In this document: positions 13,310-32,860 of the stretch, piece by piece
How the letters are laid out: each line of letters begins with the position of its first letter
Position numbering within the stretch: position 1 is the stretch's first letter
NCBI GenBank assembly: GCA_026692845.1
Contig: JAPLNM010000060.1
Coordinates: 1 to 32,860 of the forward strand
Length of the DNA stretch: 32,860 nucleotides
Reading direction: 5' to 3'
Origin: Planctomycetota bacterium
GTDB taxonomy: Bacteria; Planctomycetota; Planctomycetia; Pirellulales; Pirellulaceae
Translations under genes and position numbers: made by a program
Notes under the pieces: model-generated
What the model was told of the DNA's origin: nothing
Seen by the model: the letters and a program-made list of their open reading frames with translations, nothing else
Database searches by the model: none

Positions 13310-15925
13310 TTACTTGCCGGCCCCCAAACCAGGACCGCCCGCACCAGCGCCCCCCAATCCAGGCCCGCCAGGACCCGAACCGCTGAGTCCAGGGCCGCCA
13401 GGACCCGAGCCTAAGCCGCCGAGTCCACCTAAGCCTCCAATACCACCCATGCCACCACCCATGCCACCGGGGCCTTCTCCTGCCGATCCGCCGTCGCTTC
13501 GGAGCGATCCACCCAAAGGACCTACAGCTGGCTTGTCGGGCTGAGTAAACATTCCATATCCATTGAAGTCGTCGAATTCGCGTAGCACCACGATCCGTCC
13601 AGAATCGGGATCAAAAGCGACCGAATCAGCTCCCGTTTTTAGACCACTGTCCTTAGGAACCTTCATCTCCAAGGGTTGCATGCCGTGCATGTCGATGACT
13701 GCCAAAAGGGTCTTGCCCTCCCTTTTCTCTACGGTCTTGATCAACTTGGTCACCGGATGGATCAATTCCAAGGCAACTTCCTTGCCCTGCTCCTTCAACT
13801 GCTGCCCAAATACATGCCCACGACTGGTCGTCTCTTTCCTTGCCAAATAACTAGCAAGCTTTGGATCGTAATCGGCAAACACCATCTCGGCCCGAGGCGC
13901 AGAGGCCTCAAATAACCGACGCTGCGCATCGGGAGCATAGGCTACATTCAACTCGCCAAGATAAGCCTCCGCCTGTCGCTTGGTCGATACAGGGCCAGAA
14001 GGCTCTGACCAAGCTGCCTTGCGGGCTGAGTTCCGCTTGTAATACGTTTCTCGACCATCCTTGTCTTTCTCGGGCTTAAACGCCTGCCGGTCTTGCCGCT
14101 CTTTGCCCAGCAAATCCTGAACACGTCGCAATGTACCCGTGGCAGAATCCAATACCGCCGATCGAGGCTGAATCGACCCGGATTCTGGGAAGTTCGGATC
14201 GTACATCAACAAACGCACGCGATAACGATACACCCGATTGGGCTTGGCCTCAAAGTCATAAAAACGAACCAGCTTGTACTTCGTCGAAGGCAACTCGCGT
14301 GGAATGTCTTCTCTGGCCGTTCCACTGCCAGCTCCCGCTCCGCCGCCGGCTCCGAAGCCGCCTGCTCCGCCTAAACCGCCAAGCCCACCGATTCCCCCCG
14401 GTGCTCCGCCCGATGGACCGCCGCCTCCACTGTAACCCGAGGGGGGTCCGCCAGCTCCACCGCCACCTCCACTGTAACCCGAGGGGGGGCCGCCAGCTCC
14501 ACCGCCACCTCCACTGTAACCCGATGGAGGTCCGCCAGCTCCACCGCCACCTCCACTATAACCCGATGGAGGTCCGCCTCCACCATAGCCTGCAGGCGCT
14601 CCACCCGCAGGCGCACTGCCCTCAGACTCGCCCCCGGATTCGCCCTCGAATCCACTGCTGCCACCAGCTCCAGGTCCACCCGCTGGACCTCCAAGCCCAC
14701 CAGGAGCTCGTACAACCCCAGAACCGGAACCGACTTTCGGTATCTCGGTGTGCGAAACAACCTCGCGGTAATTCTTCAATAGCAATGGCGGAACAGGAAT
14801 CGTGATGTTCGGTGCGGTCCAGCCTGCCTCGGAAACCTCCGGAGCTGTCCCGAGCCAAACGGATTTGGAAAGCTCTTTCAATCGCTCCGAACCGGCACCG
14901 ACCAGCGGTTGCCAATCGGCTTCCTGAATCGCTTTGGTCGGATCCTCGGTCACGTCGACTCGCTCGACTTCAAAGCCGGCATAGTTGGGCGTATCGCGAC
15001 CCGGCATGATGTTCCCCCCCGGAGAAAGCTTGGATCGATACTCTTTTTCCAATTCCTCATGGGGTGCCAAGGCCATGACACTCACAAATCCAATGTCCCT
15101 TGGGCCGATCGATTTGCGTCTCGGATCGTTCGGGTTCGACGCCCCAAGCGTATGCGAAGGGAAACCTTGATCATAGCCGCCCGACAAATAGCGCTTCGCA
15201 TTGGTCACCGCCCCACCTCCAAGCCCTCCGCCCATTCCTGGAGGCCCTCCACCGCCGATGAGTCCCGGAGGTCCCCCTCCCGGACCACCGCGGCCGCCCC
15301 CACCTTCTCCTTCAAATCCACCCCCGGGTCGACCCGCGCCGGGCTCTTTCTTTTTCGCTTCTTTTTTTTCTTCTGCAGCGCTGAGCTTGTCGAGATACTC
15401 GACCAATTGCGCATTGGCATTGCCCACAACAATCGGTCCAAAGTAATAACTGGCTTCCAGCCCCGTGGCCGGAAGAATCTCGGGGTCGACTCGGTATCCA
15501 GTGATTCTCGAACCCGGTACGGGTATCTCCGGACGATACATATCCTTGGGAATCGGCTTGGTAGCATCCACCGATTTCTCGGTATAGCTAACATCGACGA
15601 CCCCCTTGACTCGCGCCTCCTCATCCTTGATCGCATCCCAATGGTTCTCGCGTATCTGATTGAGAACTTGATTGGCCTTGTCGGAAAGCTTCTTCGGGTC
15701 TTTCGTCGCCTCGATGGTCTTGGACGTAAACCCCAAATAAATTAACCCAGCACTCAAGAGCAACATCAAGCCAAAGACGAATTTCTCCACATGGTAGAGC
15801 ATAAATTCTTTGGCATTGAAACTCCCCTTGGACTTCGACTTGCTCTTGCCAGCGGCCTTCTCTTCCGATTTGCTTGCCACCGGTTTGCTATCGGCTTGGT
15901 CTTTGCTTTTCTTTTTTCCGAACAT
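13310..15925 (-). CDS. Gly-rich single-pass membrane protein, third gene of the PilM-type operon
   Basis: I do not recognise a named family. The 871-residue product has a Lys/Ser-rich cytoplasmic N-terminus (1-45), one transmembrane segment at about 49-66 (FVFGLMLLLSAGLIYLGF), then an exported part. Two low-complexity stretches interrupt it: a Gly-rich run near DNA 15200-15340, and a tandem GGPPSGYSGGGGGA repeat at 14418-14580. Between and after them are folded-looking segments, including VRFYDFEAKPNRVYRYRVRL. It ends in another Gly/Pro-rich tail. An AGGAG site precedes the ATG, and the gene is 45 nt downstream of its partner. Its position suggests a PilO/PilP-type partner of the PilM-PilN fusion; this is inference. 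Confidence 0.75.
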   Translation of the reverse strand: MFGKKKSKDQADSKPVASKSEEKAAGKSKSKSKGSFNAKEFMLYHVEKFVFGLMLLLSAGLIYLGFTSKTIEATKDPKKLSDKANQVLNQIRENHWDAIKDEEARVKGVVDVSYTEKSVDATKPIPKDMYRPEIPVPGSRITGYRVDPEILPATGLEASYYFGPIVVGNANAQLVEYLDKLSAAEEKKEAKKKEPGAGRPGGGFEGEGGGGRGGPGGGPPGLIGGGGPPGMGGGLGGGAVTNAKRYLSGGYDQGFPSHTLGASNPNDPRRKSIGPRDIGFVSVMALAPHEELEKEYRSKLSPGGNIMPGRDTPNYAGFEVERVDVTEDPTKAIQEADWQPLVGAGSERLKELSKSVWLGTAPEVSEAGWTAPNITIPVPPLLLKNYREVVSHTEIPKVGSGSGVVRAPGGLGGPAGGPGAGGSSGFEGESGGESEGSAPAGGAPAGYGGGGPPSGYSGGGGGAGGPPSGYSGGGGGAGGPPSGYSGGGGGAGGPPSGYSGGGGPSGGAPGGIGGLGGLGGAGGFGAGGGAGAGSGTAREDIPRELPSTKYKLVRFYDFEAKPNRVYRYRVRLLMYDPNFPESGSIQPRSAVLDSATGTLRRVQDLLGKERQDRQAFKPEKDKDGRETYYKRNSARKAAWSEPSGPVSTKRQAEAYLGELNVAYAPDAQRRLFEASAPRAEMVFADYDPKLASYLARKETTSRGHVFGQQLKEQGKEVALELIHPVTKLIKTVEKREGKTLLAVIDMHGMQPLEMKVPKDSGLKTGADSVAFDPDSGRIVVLREFDDFNGYGMFTQPDKPAVGPLGGSLRSDGGSAGEGPGGMGGGMGGIGGLGGLGGLGSGPGGPGLSGSGPGGPGLGGAGAGGPGLGAGK
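14418..14580 (-). repeat. 42-bp tandem repeat coding for GGPPSGYSGGGGGA units
   Basis: About four head-to-tail copies of a 42-bp unit lie in frame in the 871-codon gene and encode a 14-residue Gly/Pro/Tyr unit. The copies differ by a few bases (for example CCCGAGGGG versus CCCGATGGA). The array is in frame, so copy changes would lengthen or shorten the linker without breaking the protein. Confidence 0.85.
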
Positions 15926-15970
15926 AAACGAACTCCTAGGTTAGTTGGTTCCCGAATCGGGATTCGTTGA

Positions 15971-17908
15971 TCAATTGCTAGAGGCAGGTGCTCCCGGACC
16001 GGCTGATGCACCCGGTTCGGCAGGTGTTCCCGGAGCGGTTGGTGCTCCCGGTTCGGCTGGTGCTCCCGGTTCGGCAGGCGCACTCGGATCGGTTGGTACG
16101 CCAGGATTGGCTGGAGCACTCGGATCGCTTGGTACGCCAGGATTGGCTGGAGCACTCGGATCGCTTGGTACGCCAGGATTGGCTGGAGCACTCGGATCGC
16201 TTGGTATGCCAGGATTGGCTGGAGCACTCGGATCGCTTGGCACGCCAGGATTGGCTGGAGCTGCGGGTGCACTGGTATCTCCAGGTGCTGCCGGTGCCTC
16301 ATTGGCCGCAGTTGCTGCCTCGACCGACTTGGTTCCGCTCAAGTTCGCTGGCGGGTTGTACAAGTAGATGAGCCCAAAAATCTCGACGGCTACCTCTCCA
16401 TTGGTGGATCGACTCGACGATCCACTGCCCAAACCTCCCATACCCGGCGCCGCGCCACCTTCGCCTGACTCCGGCTCACCACCCATGTCTCCGTCGCTTC
16501 GCAATTCCGCTCCGGATCCGCCAGCTCCAGTAGCACCCAGACCCGGCATGTTCCCTTCGCCTTCCCCACCGAAACCGCCCGCTCCAGCACCACTTCCGGC
16601 CGCTCCTCCGCTGGAGGTTGCGTCGGTGTTGTAGCGCACCTGAAGCACTTCAAGCATCATTTTTCCATTGCCGCACTCGGTGATTAGCCGACCGAGTTGC
16701 GATTCGTCGATCTTCAAACGCATGCGGACGGAAATTCGTTTGGCAACAGCAATGACCGCATCAGGAGCGTTTTTTAAGTCCATCGCGCTTCGCAACTGGA
16801 CTCCTGTAAGCGGCTTGAACGATGTATCGACATAGCGACCCTCGGCTGGATCTTTGGCTCTTGCGGCTCCCGAAGGCACCATCGAACCTCCCTTGCCACC
16901 CCCGCCCATTCCACCATAACCCGAGGGTGGTCCTCCTCCACCGCCGCCACCGGCGTAATCCGACGGCGGTCCGCCACCCATCATCCCCATCATTCCTCCA
17001 CCGGCACCACCGGCGGCTGCCCCGGCTCCCGACAGGCTACCTGCCTCGCGACTGGCCTTGGCCCCCCAACGGATCCACTCGATCTCCCTTACGACAGCCT
17101 GGAAGTTTTCCTTGGCCTCCGCATTGGTATTGGCAAGAATGTCCATGATGCCTCGCAAGATCCAAATATCTTCCTGCGTGTAGTAAATCTCATGGATCGT
17201 CGGAGGCGTCGAGCGGCCGTACCATGGCAAGGCCGTTGAGATGAGCTCCTTTTGAGCCGTTTCTGGCCATCGGACCAAATCCTTGCTGTCGTCGGGTTTG
17301 CCTGCAGTTCCCGTGGTCAAGCCACCACCAAACGCACCACCGCCGGGAGGCTCGAACCCGCCGCCTGCGGGTGCCATGGCTTTTTGATCCAAAACGAACT
17401 TCCAGGTGCTTCCAATTCGCTTCGCAAGCGCCGGGAACTCAGGCTCGATGTAGCCTTTGTAAACATCCCTATCGCGAACCGTCACCTGATCTAAAGGTGA
17501 TGGGATGGGCTCAGGCAGTGGGAATGGGACTTTCTTCTCAAAGGGCCTAAGTCCGTCGAAAATCTCTCGGACCTTGGGATATTGAAACGCATTGGTCGGC
17601 CAAGTCAAAAACTCTTTTTGTCGCTCGTACTGAAATTGCCAAGCTTGATCGACATCGCTGACGAGCCCCTCAAGCCGCCTTTCCATTTCTTTGTGGGACA
17701 ACTCATTGGGGTGCGTCGGAGTCTTGCCACCGATCTCGTTGATCTTGGAAAACACGCCATTGACCGTGCTGATTCTCTGCGAAATCGACGAGTACATGCT
17801 CGACGAGGTCAAATAGAAAATCACGCTCGACAAAAGCAGGACCAACCCTGCAAGGATCCAAAAGGAATACTTGGCTATCTCTTTGATGTACCTTTTCAAA
17901 TCGTCCAT
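15971..17908 (-). CDS. Single-pass membrane protein with Pro-rich C-terminal repeats, second gene of the PilM-type operon
   Basis: The 645-residue product has a short basic N-terminus (MDDLKRYIKEIAKY), one transmembrane helix at about 14-34, and then a helical stretch likely to be coiled (SSISQRISTVNGVFSKINEI). This topology fits PilO or GspM. After Gly-rich linkers, a segment around AVAKRISVRMRLKIDESQLG and LLEVLQVRYN looks like the small alpha/beta C-terminal domain found in such proteins. The C-terminus is a Pro/Ala repeat (PSDPSAPANPGV units). An AGGAG site precedes the ATG, 79 nt after the PilM-PilN fusion gene. The PilO-like reading rests on topology and neighbourhood, not a clear motif. 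Confidence 0.72.
   Translation of the reverse strand: MDDLKRYIKEIAKYSFWILAGLVLLLSSVIFYLTSSSMYSSISQRISTVNGVFSKINEIGGKTPTHPNELSHKEMERRLEGLVSDVDQAWQFQYERQKEFLTWPTNAFQYPKVREIFDGLRPFEKKVPFPLPEPIPSPLDQVTVRDRDVYKGYIEPEFPALAKRIGSTWKFVLDQKAMAPAGGGFEPPGGGAFGGGLTTGTAGKPDDSKDLVRWPETAQKELISTALPWYGRSTPPTIHEIYYTQEDIWILRGIMDILANTNAEAKENFQAVVREIEWIRWGAKASREAGSLSGAGAAAGGAGGGMMGMMGGGPPSDYAGGGGGGGPPSGYGGMGGGGKGGSMVPSGAARAKDPAEGRYVDTSFKPLTGVQLRSAMDLKNAPDAVIAVAKRISVRMRLKIDESQLGRLITECGNGKMMLEVLQVRYNTDATSSGGAAGSGAGAGGFGGEGEGNMPGLGATGAGGSGAELRSDGDMGGEPESGEGGAAPGMGGLGSGSSSRSTNGEVAVEIFGLIYLYNPPANLSGTKSVEAATAANEAPAAPGDTSAPAAPANPGVPSDPSAPANPGIPSDPSAPANPGVPSDPSAPANPGVPSDPSAPANPGVPTDPSAPAEPGAPAEPGAPTAPGTPAEPGASAGPGAPASSN
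16080..16259 (-). repeat. Five 36-bp tandem repeats coding for PSDPSAPANPGV units
   Basis: Five head-to-tail copies of exactly 36 bp start at 16080, 16116, 16152, 16188 and 16224 and differ at only a few positions. Each encodes 12 residues in the gene's reading frame. Degenerate shorter units (PGAPAEP type) continue the array toward the C-terminus. Confidence 0.93.
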
Positions 17909-28965: not shown

Positions 28966-31170
28966 TCAGTCCTTGAGCCCGCGGCGGATCAAAAGCGCCT
29001 CGACCCCTGGTTCCTGTCCCCGGAAATCAATGTATTGCTGCATCACCTCCCGCGAACCTCCCCGCGAAAGCACCTTCTCGCGAAACAAGGTCCCGTTGGC
29101 CGATGTCAAACCACCCGAACGCTTCATAAAGGCATAAGCATCCGCAGCCAAAACCTCGCTCCATAAGTAAGCGTAATACCCGGCGGAGTAGCCCCCCGAC
29201 CAAACATGTGCAAAGTACGCACTGCGGTACCGGGGCGGGACGGCAGCCAAATCGACCCCAAACTTAGCCAAAAGCTGCTTTTCAAATCCGACGACATCCC
29301 CAGGCACTTCCTCAGGGCTTAGCGAATGCCATCCCAAATCCAGCAGCGCCGCCGAAAGATACTCCAACGAATCGAAACCCTTGTTGAACTTGCTTGCCGC
29401 TATCGCCTTGTCCAGGAGTTCCTTGGGCAAGACCTCTGCGGTTTGATAGTGCCTGGCATAATTGGCCAAAATGTCCGGCTCGATCGCCCAGTCCTCATGG
29501 AATGTCGAGGGAAACTCGACGTAATCTCGCGGGACGCTCGTGCCGGATAAACTCGGATACTCGACGGCCGAAAAAAGTCCATGAACGCCGTGGCCAAGCT
29601 CATGGAACATCGTCTGAACGTGATCCAGACTCATCAGCGCCGGTTCGCCCGGGGCCGGACTCGGAATGTTCATGACGTTGATCACCACAGGCAACTGATG
29701 GAGCAACCGCGACTGCGAGACCAACGAGTCCATCCAAGCCCCACCGCGCTTCGAATCCCTCTGGAAATAGTCGGCGTAGAACAATCCGATCGGCTTGCCA
29801 TCTTTCCCGACGACATCAAATACACGAACCGTCGGATGCCACACGGGCAAATCCGTTCGCTCCTTGAACTCCATCCCGTAGAGCTTGTTGTACGTATAAA
29901 ACACACCGTTTTTCAGTACGCTCTCTAGCTCAAAATAAGGCTTGATCGCACTCTCGTCGACCTGATACTTCTTGGCCCGGACCTTCTCGGCATAGTACTC
30001 CCAATCCCAAGCCTCCGGCGGGCCGCTCAACCCATCCTCTTTCATCGCTGCGGTGATCAGTGCCGCTTCGGATTTGACCTTCTCGACGACCCCTGGCACC
30101 AAATCCTGCAACATCTTCATGGCCGCCTTGGGGTTGCCAGCCATCTGGTTCTCCAAAGTAAACGAAGCATGATCGCTGTAGCCGAGCAACCTAGCCCTGC
30201 GTGCCCTGAGCGTGGCTAACTCCAAAACAATCGGCTGATTGTCGATCCCCGCATTTTCTCCCAACGCGCGATTGGCACTGGCCAACCACACCCGTCGGCG
30301 AAGCTCGCGATTCTTCAACGATGTCAAAACCGGCTGCCTTGTCGTGTTGGTGATCGCCAACAAATACTTTCCATCCTGCCCCCGCGCACTGGCCGACTGC
30401 TTGGCCGCAGCGATCTCTCCGTCACTCATCCCTGCAAGCTGGGCGATGTCATCGACCAATACGGCTCGCTCCTTGGTCACCGCCAACAAATGGTTCTGAA
30501 ACTGAGTCGTGAGCGTCGAAATCCGCTCGTTGATCGCTCGGACCTCGATCTGCTGGGGCTCGGATAGCTTGGCCCCGGCCCGCACGAAATCCTCATACGT
30601 CTTCTTGAGCAACCTCTGCTGCTCTTCGCTGAGCTTCAACTCTTGACGCTCGCTCCAGAGCCGCTCGACTCGAGCAAACAATGGCTTGTCCAAATAAATG
30701 TCGTCGGAATGCCGAGCCAACTTCGGGGCCACCTCGCGTTCGATTTCCTGGATCGCTTCGTTGGTGTGAGCACCTGCCAAATTGAAAAAGACCGCTGAGA
30801 CGCGCGTGAGAATCTCTCCGGACTTCTCCATCGAAACCAGCGTATTTTCAAATGAGGGTGGATCCTGCTGCCGGGCGATCGAGCGTACTTGCTCGAGCTG
30901 CTGGGCGAACCCTGCATCAAAGGCACTGGCGAAATGCTCTGGCTTGATCGATGCGAAATCAGGTGCTTGAAATGGAAGTTTACTAGCCGCAAAAAATGGA
31001 TTGTCGTGGTTCATCGTTTTGATACTGGTCTTGTCGGTCGATCGGGTTCCTGAAGCGTCCTGTCCCCAAACCATTGGGCCCGCTTCGATCACCCATGAAG
31101 CCTGCACTCCGATCGCACAGACCAACCCAACCTTCCCTAGACCCATCCCCCATCGAACTCTTTTATTCAT
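28966..31170 (-). CDS. dcp: Exported M3-family metallopeptidase (Dcp/oligopeptidase A-like)
   Basis: The product is a zinc peptidase that cleaves short peptides. The HEXXH motif is HELGH at about residues 523-527 (in MFHELGHGVHGLF). The Dcp-type continuation SGTSVPRDYVEFPSTFHEDW carries the likely third zinc ligand, and FNKGFDSLEYLSAALLDLGW completes the family C-terminal half. The ATG at 31170 gives 734 residues with a signal-peptide-like start (basic MNKRVRWGMGLGK, then a hydrophobic run to about residue 30); an ATG at 31185 would add five residues. Export would be unusual for classic oligopeptidase A but occurs in environmental Dcp homologues. It appears monocistronic. Confidence 0.9.
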   Translation of the reverse strand: MNKRVRWGMGLGKVGLVCAIGVQASWVIEAGPMVWGQDASGTRSTDKTSIKTMNHDNPFFAASKLPFQAPDFASIKPEHFASAFDAGFAQQLEQVRSIARQQDPPSFENTLVSMEKSGEILTRVSAVFFNLAGAHTNEAIQEIEREVAPKLARHSDDIYLDKPLFARVERLWSERQELKLSEEQQRLLKKTYEDFVRAGAKLSEPQQIEVRAINERISTLTTQFQNHLLAVTKERAVLVDDIAQLAGMSDGEIAAAKQSASARGQDGKYLLAITNTTRQPVLTSLKNRELRRRVWLASANRALGENAGIDNQPIVLELATLRARRARLLGYSDHASFTLENQMAGNPKAAMKMLQDLVPGVVEKVKSEAALITAAMKEDGLSGPPEAWDWEYYAEKVRAKKYQVDESAIKPYFELESVLKNGVFYTYNKLYGMEFKERTDLPVWHPTVRVFDVVGKDGKPIGLFYADYFQRDSKRGGAWMDSLVSQSRLLHQLPVVINVMNIPSPAPGEPALMSLDHVQTMFHELGHGVHGLFSAVEYPSLSGTSVPRDYVEFPSTFHEDWAIEPDILANYARHYQTAEVLPKELLDKAIAASKFNKGFDSLEYLSAALLDLGWHSLSPEEVPGDVVGFEKQLLAKFGVDLAAVPPRYRSAYFAHVWSGGYSAGYYAYLWSEVLAADAYAFMKRSGGLTSANGTLFREKVLSRGGSREVMQQYIDFRGQEPGVEALLIRRGLKD

Positions 31171-31270
31171 GGCTCCATCTCGCATCGCGTGGCTAAAAAC
31201 CCATCTAAGCTCCCTATGGTAACCGATCCATCAAATCCGATCAGCCAACCCCGAAGGAATATTTTTTTGA

Positions 31271-31444
31271 GGCTGATTCAAATCGCCCAACCGCTGTCGC
31301 TGGTTGGCTAACCGACAACTGATTCACTCTGTGAGCCGCCTAGGCGCAAGCCGCGGGCTATTGCCATAAGCCCCGCACCGATCCGATCGTGCTGCACCGC
31401 CGGAATTCGCTTACCTGCTGGAGCCCAAACGCAGCGTCGTAGGG
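31271..31444. repeat. RAYT-island repeat, unit 1 (A-type end)
   Basis: This is a 174-bp unit beginning GGCTGATTCAAATCGCCCAA and ending with the A-type segment (GGAATTCGCTTACCTGCTGG, then CAAACGCAGCGTCGTA). It is the most diverged of the units in its first 60 bp. Like all units it contains a near-palindrome, GCGGGCTA..CATAAGCCCCGC, and a GCACCGATCCGATCGTGC inverted repeat. The 100 bp before it (31171-31270) are the leader of the peptidase gene and hold nothing else I can name. Confidence 0.9.
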
Positions 31445-31617
31445 GGCTGATTTAAATGCCCAACCGCTTGCGCTGGTTGGCTCACCGACAGGTGATTCAC
31501 CCTGTGAGCCGCCTAGGCGCAAGCCGCGGGCTATGGCTATAAGCCCCGCACCGATCCGATTGTGCTGCACCGCCGGAATTCGCTTACCTGCTGGGGCCCA
31601 AACGCAGCGTCGTAGGG
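31445..31617. repeat. RAYT-island repeat, unit 2 (A-type end)
   Basis: A 173-bp copy directly abutting unit 1 in the same orientation. It has the paired segments GGCTCAC and GTGAGCC around AGGTGATTCACCCT, and GCTTGCGC facing GCGCAAGC, so the left half can fold into one long imperfect hairpin. Confidence 0.93.
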
Positions 31618-31802
31618 GGCTGATTCAAATCCGCCCAACCGCTTGCGCTGGTTGGCTCACCGACAGGTGATTCCCCCTGTGAGCCGCCTAGGCGCAAGCC
31701 GCGGGCTATGGCCATAAACCCCGCACCGATCCGATCGTGCTGCACCGCCGGAATTGTCCACCCGCACGAGTCCAGCTCGGGCCTAAACGCAGAGTCGTAG
31801 GG
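31618..31802. repeat. RAYT-island repeat, unit 3 (B-type end)
   Basis: A 185-bp copy abutting unit 2. It shares the left 130 bp with the other units but has a different, longer right segment (GTCCACCCGCACGAGTCCAG) in place of CGCTTACCTGCTGG, before the common AACGCAG-GTCGTAGG end. Confidence 0.93.
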
Positions 31803-31893
31803 GGCTGATTTAAATACGCCCAACCGCTTGCGCTGGTTGGCTCACGGGTGATTCACCCCGTGAGCCAACCAGCGCAAGCCGCGGGCGATTGCT
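31803..31893. repeat. Truncated repeat unit 4 with a perfect 23-bp-stem hairpin upstream of the transposase gene
   Basis: Only the left half of the unit is present. Here the imperfect hairpin of the other units is perfect: 31826-31848 (GCTTGCGCTGGTTGGCTCAC then GGG) is the exact reverse complement of 31857-31879, around an 8-nt loop (TGATTCAC). The unit ends about 105 nt before the transposase start; an AT-rich stretch fills the rest. Confidence 0.93.
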
Positions 31894-31999
31894 ATTTCAT
31901 GGTCGAATCAAATCAAGGCACGAAATCCGAAATACGTTTTTTTAACCAAAACAAGGTTCTTTTCTGATTTTTCGCTATAACGAAAAAAAGGAGCGGACT

Positions 32000-32461
32000 A
32001 TGAATGGACCACTGGCGTACTTTATAACTTGGACCGTATATGGAACGCATTTACCTGGCTCCGAGAAATGGTGGAGAAACCGATCGGAAATATCACTGCC
32101 GCCCAGACCCAAGTTAGAGGAGTGGTGCCGAAATCAGCTTCGGTATCCAGTTCTTACACTGTCGGTTGATGAACGACAAGTTGTGAAATCCACAGTTGCA
32201 CTTCACGCGAATATCCGAAAATGGAATCTATGGGCTGTGAACGCTAGGACCAACCACGTTCATGTGGTAATCAGCGCTCAATCGGTTTTATGGAATATCA
32301 TTAGGGATCAGTTGAAAGCATATTGCACACGTGATTTGAGAACGGATTTCTCCAGGTGGAGGGGACGGCCAGTATGGACTAAGGGGGGTGACTGTGAGTT
32401 CATTGATACGATGGACGAACTCGAAAATGTAATAAATTACGTATTGTATGGACAAGACTGA
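32000..32461 (+). CDS. REP-associated tyrosine transposase-like protein (Y1/HUH family, RAYT)
   Basis: The 153-residue product belongs to the single-strand HUH nucleases related to IS200 transposases. The HUH motif is HVH at 86-88 in NHVHVVIS; it is preceded by the N-terminal YFITWTVYGTHLPG typical of RAYT proteins, and the C-terminal helix INYVLYGQD offers Tyr147 or Tyr150 as the catalytic tyrosine. An AGGAG site lies 7 nt before the ATG. RAYT proteins cut and join at palindromic repeats; this gene is bounded by such repeats, and its stop codon almost touches the next unit. Its base composition is visibly more AT-rich than the neighbours, which suggests foreign origin. It is complete, not obviously decayed. 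Confidence 0.88.
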   Translation: MNGPLAYFITWTVYGTHLPGSEKWWRNRSEISLPPRPKLEEWCRNQLRYPVLTLSVDERQVVKSTVALHANIRKWNLWAVNARTNHVHVVISAQSVLWNIIRDQLKAYCTRDLRTDFSRWRGRPVWTKGGDCEFIDTMDELENVINYVLYGQD

Positions 32462-32462
32462 A

Positions 32463-32638
32463 CTGAATCGCCCAACCGCTTGCGCTGGTTGGCTCACCGA
32501 CAGTGATTCCCCCTGTGAGCCGCCTAGGCGCAAGCCGCGGGCTATGGCCATAAACCCCGCACCGATCCGATCGTGCTGCACCCCCGGGATTGTCCACCCG
32601 CACGAGTCCAGCTGGGGCCCAAACGCAGCGTCGTAGGG
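32463..32638. repeat. RAYT-island repeat, unit 5 (B-type end)
   Basis: Starts 2 nt after the transposase stop, with its first few bases trimmed (CTGAATCGCCCAACCGC). It has the B-type right segment, like unit 3, so the gene is flanked on both sides by B-type copies. Confidence 0.92.
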
Positions 32639-32813
32639 GGCTGATTTAAATACGCCCAACCGCTTGCGCTGGTTGGCTCACCGACAGGTGATTCACCCTG
32701 TGAGCCGCCTAGGCGCAAGCCGCGGGCTATGGCCATAAGCCCCGCACCGATCCGATCGTGCTGCACCGCCGGAATTCGCTTACCTGCTGGAGCCCAAACG
32801 CAGCGTCGTAGGG
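32639..32813. repeat. RAYT-island repeat, unit 6 (A-type end)
   Basis: A 175-bp copy abutting unit 5 in the same orientation, with the A-type right segment. It is nearly identical to unit 2. Confidence 0.93.
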
Positions 32814-32860
32814 GGCTGATTCAAATCCGCCCAACCGCTTGCGCTGGTTGGCTCACCGAC
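32814..32860. repeat. RAYT-island repeat, unit 7 (cut by the window end)
   Basis: The first 47 bp of a further unit (GGCTGATTCAAATCCGCCCA and on to GGCTCACCGAC). The array therefore continues beyond the window. Confidence 0.9.

Follow-up and report, generated by a model that had tools for sequence, protein, structure and literature searches.

The window analysed here is a stretch of 32,860 nucleotides from a planctomycete of the Pirellulaceae, and represents one entire contig (G000:C60:1-32860) of a draft genome of 5.24 Mb in 182 contigs, hereafter the source genome (G000). At its right end, positions 31271-32860, an open reading frame (ORF) for a putative REP-associated tyrosine transposase (RAYT; REP, repetitive extragenic palindrome) is embedded in an array of direct repeats, which occupy 31271-31895 and 32465-32860 and all run in one direction. 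The start-to-start spacings of one repeat arm were 173, 175, 185 and 184 bp. This bears out the original prediction, made from the sequence alone, of a small HUH (histidine-hydrophobic-histidine), single-tyrosine (Y1) transposase inside head-to-tail repeats of one orientation, with a measured period of 173-185 bp. The predicted count of at least seven copies is right for the arm CCCAACCGC..GGTTGGCT, of which seven copies are readable in the window; the complete units number five, another pair is split by the transposase gene and the outermost units are cut. Two copies of 207 bp, at 31458 and 32654, share 99% identity. Since the window is an entire contig, the right side of the array is truncated at the contig end.

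Sequence comparison indicates that the repeating unit is a REPIN (REP doublet forming hairpins), that is, two inverted bulged hairpins of REP size (approximately 28 nt) with their GTGAGC feet outermost and a spacer of about 100 bp between them. The REPINs in the window are 155-167 bp long and consecutive ones are joined by linkers of 14-18 nt; the array is a tandem bacterial interspersed mosaic element (BIME). The two hairpins read 5'-GTGAGCCGCCTAGGCGCAAGCCGCGG and 5'-GTGAGCCAACCAGCGCAAGCGGTTGG, both arms having TGAG as the foot; REP2 divides into GTGAGC CGC CTA GGC GCAA GCC GCGG, and inverted REP1 into GTGAGC CAACC A GC GCAA GC GGTTGG. When 49 of the 55 full-length units were aligned, mean column identity was 0.926 and 0.972 in the arms compared to 0.863 in the spacer, and a G-N-N-A tetraloop with varying middle letters (GCAA, GCCA) was present in 48/49 and 49/49 units. 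The inverted repeats that had been predicted within the unit are real: one REP1 arm (32655-32681, equivalent to 32829-32856 and found by the hairpin scan) folds as single-stranded DNA (ssDNA) at z -3.14 relative to shuffles.

The reading of the unit as an outward-footed REPIN rests on some copies that begin or end exactly at GTGAGC or GCTCAC. Edges were analysed at 46 places with arrays or solitary copies in five genomes, omitting contig ends, edges at runs of N and one orthologous site. Exact starts at the GTGAGC foot were observed in 7 of 41 cases (1.9 expected for random edges, binomial p 0.002) and exact ends at GCTCAC in 10 of 39 (1.6 expected, binomial p 2e-6); before the N-run edges and the orthologous site were dropped, the counts were 9/43 and 11/41. 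Clean solitary units of 154-155 bp were found at G000:C106:53377-53530, with an extra REP1 arm adjoining, and at G017:C44:5066-5220. A single REP several times longer than usual, as originally proposed, was rejected because the cleanly ending solitary copies stop at the feet of two ordinary REPs. The length of the unit thus reflects a REPIN with its linker, whose hairpins do not exceed the usual REP size; tandem BIMEs are already known from the part of Corneloup et al. (2021, PMC8266576) available to us. GTAG was also considered as the foot and rejected: it occurs in the spacer (..GTCGTAGGGGG..), where CTGG stands at the aligned place in many other units, and none of the unit's hairpin feet was seen to have it.

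The transposase gene is bracketed by REPs at 31860-31895 and 32470-32497, feet outward, and fills the spacer position of this one REP pair (left side GTGAGCCAACCAGCGCAAGCCGCGGGCGATTGCTAT, right side AATCGCCCAACC..GGCTCAC). The left REP folds no better than shuffles (31860-31890, z 0.26); it reads as if its halves came from REP1 and REP2, which leaves the normal stem unpaired, and it is perhaps a product of recombination. All features are collected in Table 1.

Table 1. Features of the repeat array and the embedded transposase gene (positions in the window).
Feature	Position	Strand	Basis
Left truncated unit: diverged REP1 arm (31285-31312) and linker	31271-31330	+	direct-repeat families D2, D5
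Complete REPIN 1 (GTGAGC ... GCTCAC)	31331-31485	+	sequence
Complete REPIN 2, used as phase reference	31504-31660	+	sequence
Complete REPIN 3, spacer longer	31679-31845	+	sequence, unit alignment
REP at 5' side of gene, apparent chimera of REP1 5' half and REP2 3' half	31860-31895	+	sequence, folding
Putative RAYT / TnpA_Y1 class-3-like HUH transposase, 153 aa	32000-32461	+	ORF, Y1_Tnp, conservation, fold
REP1 arm, 8 bp past the stop codon	32470-32497	-	sequence, repeat families
Complete REPIN 5; 32503-32681 is 97% identical to 31667-31845, which contains REPIN 3	32515-32681	+	
Complete REPIN 6; array leaves the contig end	32700-32856	+	
Example REP2: TGAG foot, CCGC/GCGG lower stem, bulge CTA, GGC/GCC, loop GCAA	32700-32727	+	hairpin scans
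Example REP1: TGAG foot, CCAACC/GGTTGG lower stem, bulge A, GC/GC, loop GCAA	32829-32856	-	sequence reading

The 153-residue protein matches the Y1_Tnp profile at 24.6 bits, against a cut-off of 23. Its NHVH motif corresponds to residues 85-88, with H86 and H88 invariant in the alignments, and W126-T127 precede Tyr147 and Gln152 (Y----Q), which are invariant in 21 alignment rows and conserved in at least 90% of 53 rows; Tyr147 is presumed to be the catalytic residue. The best Foldseek matches of the AlphaFold2 model (mean predicted local distance difference test score, pLDDT, 90.8) were IS608 and ISDra2 TnpA, and TnpA_REP with a REP hairpin (4er8) was matched at E 6e-4 with 10% identity, while a sequence search of the PDB with the protein gave unrelated matches only (E 0.44 or worse). 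The model points to an HUH enzyme with a single tyrosine and an IS200/IS605-like fold. One match to the gene was found in the source genome. Another, different Y1 transposase gene is present there on the minus strand of G000:C31 (L009:335-1135; 266 aa, Y1_Tnp 45 bits), flanked by another short REP family (GCCTCCGCCGGGACGAGCCCGACGGTAGGC) arranged head to tail; matches to this second REP array number 38 in G000, 22 in G010, 16 in G017 and 42 in G019, with none in G001.

The unit is not confined to this locus, a possibility against which the original prediction had to be held. With the last 861 bases of the window as query, 67 matches were obtained in the source genome, on many contigs and several at contig ends. 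Five genomes, G000 and four congeners, were then compared using a 155-bp unit from G017 as query, with 40/59 candidates scored in G000, 40/57 in G019, 40/40 in G017, 40/43 in G010 and 18/18 in G001. Full-length matches (at least 140 of 155 positions), tallied from the match listing, numbered at least 41 in G000, at least 5 in G019, at least 5 in G017 (one being the query), at least 2 in G010 and at least 1 in G001, and matches of all lengths at least 96, 44, 33, 35 and 4, respectively. Similarly, a profile search of fetched loci gave full/partial counts of 41/27 in G000, 5/22 in G019, 6/5 in G017, 2/11 in G010 and 1/1 in G001; these loci were chosen by earlier matches, so that the ratio is informative and the total is not. 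The 41 full units of G000 came from 18 of 21 sources (20 fetched loci and the window). Among the five genomes compared, full-length units are abundant only in the RAYT-carrying source genome. A similar number of repeats in genomes lacking the transposase, which the original prediction had named as a finding against it, was accordingly not seen for full-length units, whereas fragments in those genomes are not rare.

In a survey of 99 genomes (the source genome and 98 relatives), unit DNA was found in 7 and a relative of the RAYT in 47, with at most 8 unit candidates scored per genome, which makes the match counts lower bounds. Among the seven unit-bearing genomes, a strong RAYT match was present in G000, G001 and G057, the unit match in G057 being marginal (28 bp). 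No RAYT match was found in G004, G017 or G019, and only a weak one in G010 (E 5e-4). The expectation that repeat-bearing genomes always carry this transposase clade was therefore not borne out in these drafts; absence of the RAYT from the four genomes is uncertain, since they are mostly incomplete metagenome-assembled genomes and genes inside repeats tend to be lost. At the place syntenic to the RAYT, G010 and G019 have degenerate units without RAYT, G017 has no unit and the contig of G004 ends, while G001 gave no match to the flank of the G000 RAYT site. Between the two degenerate units of G010 (L207:2108-2745 on G010:C163) lies a MazE-like antitoxin/PIN-domain toxin pair (Pfam MazE_antitoxin 24.8 bits, cut-off 24.7; PIN 48.9 bits, cut-off 23.6).

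Some arrays are shared by descent: those of G000 C113/C172 with G019 C172, where the flanks are 87-88% identical, that of C40 with G010 C191 and that of C41 with G001 C111. Two sites were tried as empty sites and rejected, L086 because the place that lacks the unit in G010, G017 and G019 holds a different REP array, and L099 because G000 and G019 are rearranged or partial there. At L086:833-1086, the same intergenic gap thus has a window-type REPIN in G000 and an array of another REP (GTAGCCATCCGCTGCCAAGCGGTGG..) in the other three genomes. At L099:4899-5056, a 9-bp minisatellite (GATCCGTCC) adjoins a solitary REPIN, and the stretch matches places in G000, G001, G004, G010 and G019. Terminator-like palindrome variants (AAACTCGGGGACAGTCCCCGAGTTTTT) were observed beside several arrays in G000, G019 and G017 (L075, L093, L099, L249). 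As judged from mechanical ORFs only, the repeats are extragenic: among 20 G000 arrays tested, overlap with an ORF of at least 200 aa was seen once (L080, 100 bp); 11 arrays are flanked on either side by ORFs of this length, which are convergent around 7 of the 11, two of the 7 sharing one gap.

The flanks of related RAYT genes were examined for hairpins of the same architecture. The best 80 of 190 relatives found were used, all of them together with the window in the hairpin scan and the tree, and 52 of the 80 in alignment A2; 79 of the 80 loci come from records of the phylum Planctomycetota and one from a record titled only 'bacterium'. In a first set of 30 loci (the window's own and 29 relatives), repeated segments were present on both sides of the gene within the fetched locus in 28, and a scan within 300 bp found 92 bulged hairpins compared to 1.3 in shuffles, in 20 of the 30 loci. 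The scan of all 81 loci, which is not independent of the first as the contigs are partly common, found 258 hairpins within 350 bp of the gene compared to 4.1 expected from shuffles. At least one hairpin was present in 69/81 loci and both sides were occupied in 56/81, with a density of 4.67 per kb near the gene and 0.34 per kb more than 700 bp away. The first letter of the foot was T in 185 of the 258 hairpins (TNAG, the AG being required by the scan) and GTAG preceded 14 of them; GTGG could not appear among the feet, as the scan required AG. These results support the original prediction of a planctomycete RAYT-REP system, with a dispersed unit and with flanking hairpins at most related loci.

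The hairpin type follows the phylogeny of the enzyme. In a maximum-likelihood phylogeny of the 81 proteins, a hairpin label being available for 69, the two letters that open the lower stem required a minimum of 8 changes compared to 18-28 in 300 label shuffles, and the loop 20 changes compared to 32-41. Moreover, in each of three tests a REP family was almost restricted to the genome that carries its RAYT. A different family (GTTAGCCGAC..GTCGG) flanks the closest relative found, the RAYT of G001 (58% identity), and a query containing this family gave 36 matches in G001 and 0 in G000, G010, G017 and G019. The repeats beside one RAYT of the closed genome G036 gave 31 matches there compared to 0, 0, 0 and 0 in four others, and those beside the RAYT of the closed genome G053 gave 81, many of them in tandem at approximately 75-84 bp, compared to 0, 0, 1 and 3 in G006, G032, G036 and G044; a RAYT match was found in neither G006 nor G032. 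Given the arrangement in G053, tandem REPINs occur elsewhere in the clade, with units at shorter intervals. What is unusual about G000 is the long spacer, although other long-spacer cases may exist. In G036, 20 of the 31 matches lie within about 50 kb at the midpoint of the closed 7.18 Mb genome (G036:C1:3592326-3641778), for which a link with the terminus region is possible, and 8 further matches lie near 7.02-7.04 Mb, where the RAYT is located.

Elsewhere in the window, the neighbour of the array is a Peptidase_M3 gene on the opposite strand (28966-31185, 420.8 bits), and tandem repeats of 42 bp and 18 bp at 14373-14593 and 15951-16297 perhaps encode low-complexity protein segments. A structured RNA family was rejected as an explanation since Rfam gave no match up to E 1 in 31000-32860, as was a defence gene since PADLOC gave no match up to E 1. 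A promoter and terminator scan around the transposase gene returned nothing.

The system can be placed among known ones. In the part of Quentin et al. (2018, PMC6006769) available to us, class 3 TnpA_Y1 proteins are described mainly from Planctomycetes, Acidobacteria and Proteobacteria, with the signature NHVH, W[TA] and Y----Q and the Y motif YV[VI][AENY]EQ; they are flanked by atypical structures with a CnGA foot, found by hand and present in up to approximately 600 copies per genome, and they resemble both insertion sequences (ISs) and REPtrons. The present locus resembles that account in its planctomycete host, in NHVH, W[TA] and Y----Q, and in its flanking atypical REP-like structures in many copies. 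The spacing of Y147 and Q152 fits the class 3 Y motif, the letters being YVLYGQ rather than YV[VI][AENY]EQ. Apart from these letters and the foot, the sequence of the window protein fits class 3. The feet differ from the CnGA given there, being TGAG in the window, and TNAG in most relatives, before the lower stem; the two-part bulged hairpin and the tandem REPINs with a long spacer were resolved here. CNGA was found just 5' of the upper stem in 43/258 hairpins and 16/69 loci, which suggests that CnGA may be one sub-type of a wider design. Given the class 3 REPtron-like planctomycete loci reported in 2018 in the consulted part of PMC6006769, the phrase 'undescribed system' was too strong.

The available part of PMC8266576 describes BIMEs as a REP and an inverted REP, often in tandem, with bulge and foot both needed. 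The E. coli TnpA_REP system covered there (subclass 2.2, group 2; PDB 4er8) has in common with the present one the HUH/Y1 fold, a 5' tetranucleotide followed by a hairpin made up of lower stem, bulge, upper stem and loop, and the often tandem REP and inverted REP. It differs in its GTAG foot, which is not found here, and in its AA/GC bulge, in place of which there is an asymmetric bulge mostly on the 5' side. The available part of Di Nocera et al. (2013, PMC3733652) reports families of REPs from R. baltica, as well as RAYT-like genes that carry terminal inverted repeats (TIRs), named TIRYT or TIRtrons. These also include Planctomycetes, RAYT-like genes and non-GTAG flanking repeats, some forming families, whereas the flanks here are bulged REP-like hairpins in REPINs and not plain long TIRs. 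The GT[AG]G REPs of a canonical class 2 TnpA_REP are lacking at the locus; it shows features of a RAYT/REPtron in the broad sense, among them the predicted HUH/Y1 fold, palindromic flanks, a family dispersed in the same genome, extragenic repeats and a single-copy gene, as well as the two inverted REPs per unit and tandem units of a REPIN or BIME. In Pseudomonas, Bertels and Rainey in 2011 reportedly described REPINs as inverted REP doublets dispersed by a presumed RAYT acting in trans. The inverted doublets are common to both systems, and the spacer of approximately 100 bp, the tandem arrays and the foot are different here. A literature search judged by title and start of abstract, with most subscription journals uncovered, found no further treatment of class 3 hairpins or of these REPINs. 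The RAYT-REPIN system is real, and it is new in detail (TNAG foot, long-spacer REPIN) and not in kind.

The locus is best explained as a REPtron, a single RAYT of class 3 type with its own REP family arranged as tandem REPINs, to which we assign a probability of about 0.83. We infer recognition and mobilisation by the enzyme from the association, the nearly private families, the exact ends of some copies and the co-variation; hairpins and enzyme appear to have changed together. Several observations weigh against this explanation. The REPs in the window have neither the canonical GT[AG]G foot nor CnGA, the foot published for class 3. Shuffled sequences fold as well as two REP2 arms (z -0.23, -0.25) and as the whole unit (z -0.64). 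Most array edges lie off the feet (34/41 starts, 29/39 ends), as expected for decayed or mosaic copies. No such hairpin was found at 12/81 loci, and bulge length follows the tree weakly (18 changes compared to 18-29 in shuffles). The scans required AG, a G..A loop and Watson-Crick stems, and the shuffles keep two-base blocks only; the foot AG, the loop and the pairing are consequently built in and are not independent findings, the independent evidence being the enrichment of hairpins over shuffles and over far flanks. Unit DNA survives, largely as fragments, in G004, G010, G017 and G019, in which no cognate RAYT was found; no clean empty site was obtained; and arrays at orthologous sites across species indicate that old inheritance explains part of the distribution.

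An alternative is an IS200/IS605-like element with miniature inverted-repeat transposable elements, in which the gene and the bracketing hairpins transpose together and the units of approximately 155 bp are internally deleted derivatives. The position of the gene between a left and a right REP, feet outward, in place of a spacer is what this would predict; both gene edges resemble units (left to ..GATTGCTAT, right from AATCGCCC), and some solitary units have exact ends. Such an element should exist as near-identical hairpin-bounded copies at several sites. The source genome, however, holds one match to the RAYT, the only other Y1 gene found there being the different 266-aa protein, and 10 of 11 pairs of RAYTs examined within one assembly are only 43-52% identical, which is more readily explained by one RAYT for each REP type than by an IS that multiplies; from these comparisons the gene is apparently single and non-multiplying. 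The eleventh pair, L140/L169 of another assembly, is a possible exception, being identical over 118/118 residues, yet it also shares flanking DNA and may reflect a segmental or assembly duplication. At other loci (L013, L018) complete REPINs lie on both sides, and the gene is not inside one. Taken together, we consider such an element unlikely.

Less is to be said for the idea that another transposase, recombination or replication slippage spread and maintains the repeats, and that the RAYT merely landed or is sheltered in the arrays. Units do occur in genomes in which no RAYT was found, orthologous arrays differ in copy number (the 36-bp REP1 of the C41 array is present six times in G000 and twice in G001), and mosaic half-units are present in G019 and G010. 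A bystander would not, however, be expected beside hairpins of one design at 69/81 related genes, with a density near the gene approximately 14 times that of the far flanks, of a type that tracks the RAYT tree and in families nearly private to the RAYT-holding genome in three tests, and this explanation appears very improbable.

For the favoured REPtron, the enzyme would recognise a folded single strand by its TNAG foot, asymmetric bulge and GNNA tetraloop, and would cleave next to the foot with Tyr147. REPs or REPINs would be copied or moved as ssDNA, probably during replication, and the tandem arrays would then expand and contract by recombination. Once the RAYT is lost or its specificity changes, the old REP family would stop spreading and decay to fragments, while a new family expands. 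A more speculative possibility, which we hold only tentatively and regard as doubtful, is that class 3 RAYTs represent a living intermediate between IS and domesticated RAYT, in which the gene is cargo between REPs, whole REPINs are still mobilised, and enzyme and stems diversify in step while the TNAG foot, asymmetric bulge and GNNA loop are kept. If so, related species would hold mutually exclusive REP families.

The findings bear on how RAYTs choose and spread their REPs, class 3 having been characterised so far, in the available part of PMC6006769, as 'atypical' structures needing experiments. The approximately 80 planctomycete RAYTs, 69 of them with a readable flanking hairpin, represent natural enzyme-substrate pairs in which the stems differ and the design is kept. 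The related species add a contrast within one REP family, which is expanded in the genome that holds its RAYT and survives mostly as fragments in those that yielded no such RAYT. Specificity and co-evolution thereby become testable without designed libraries.

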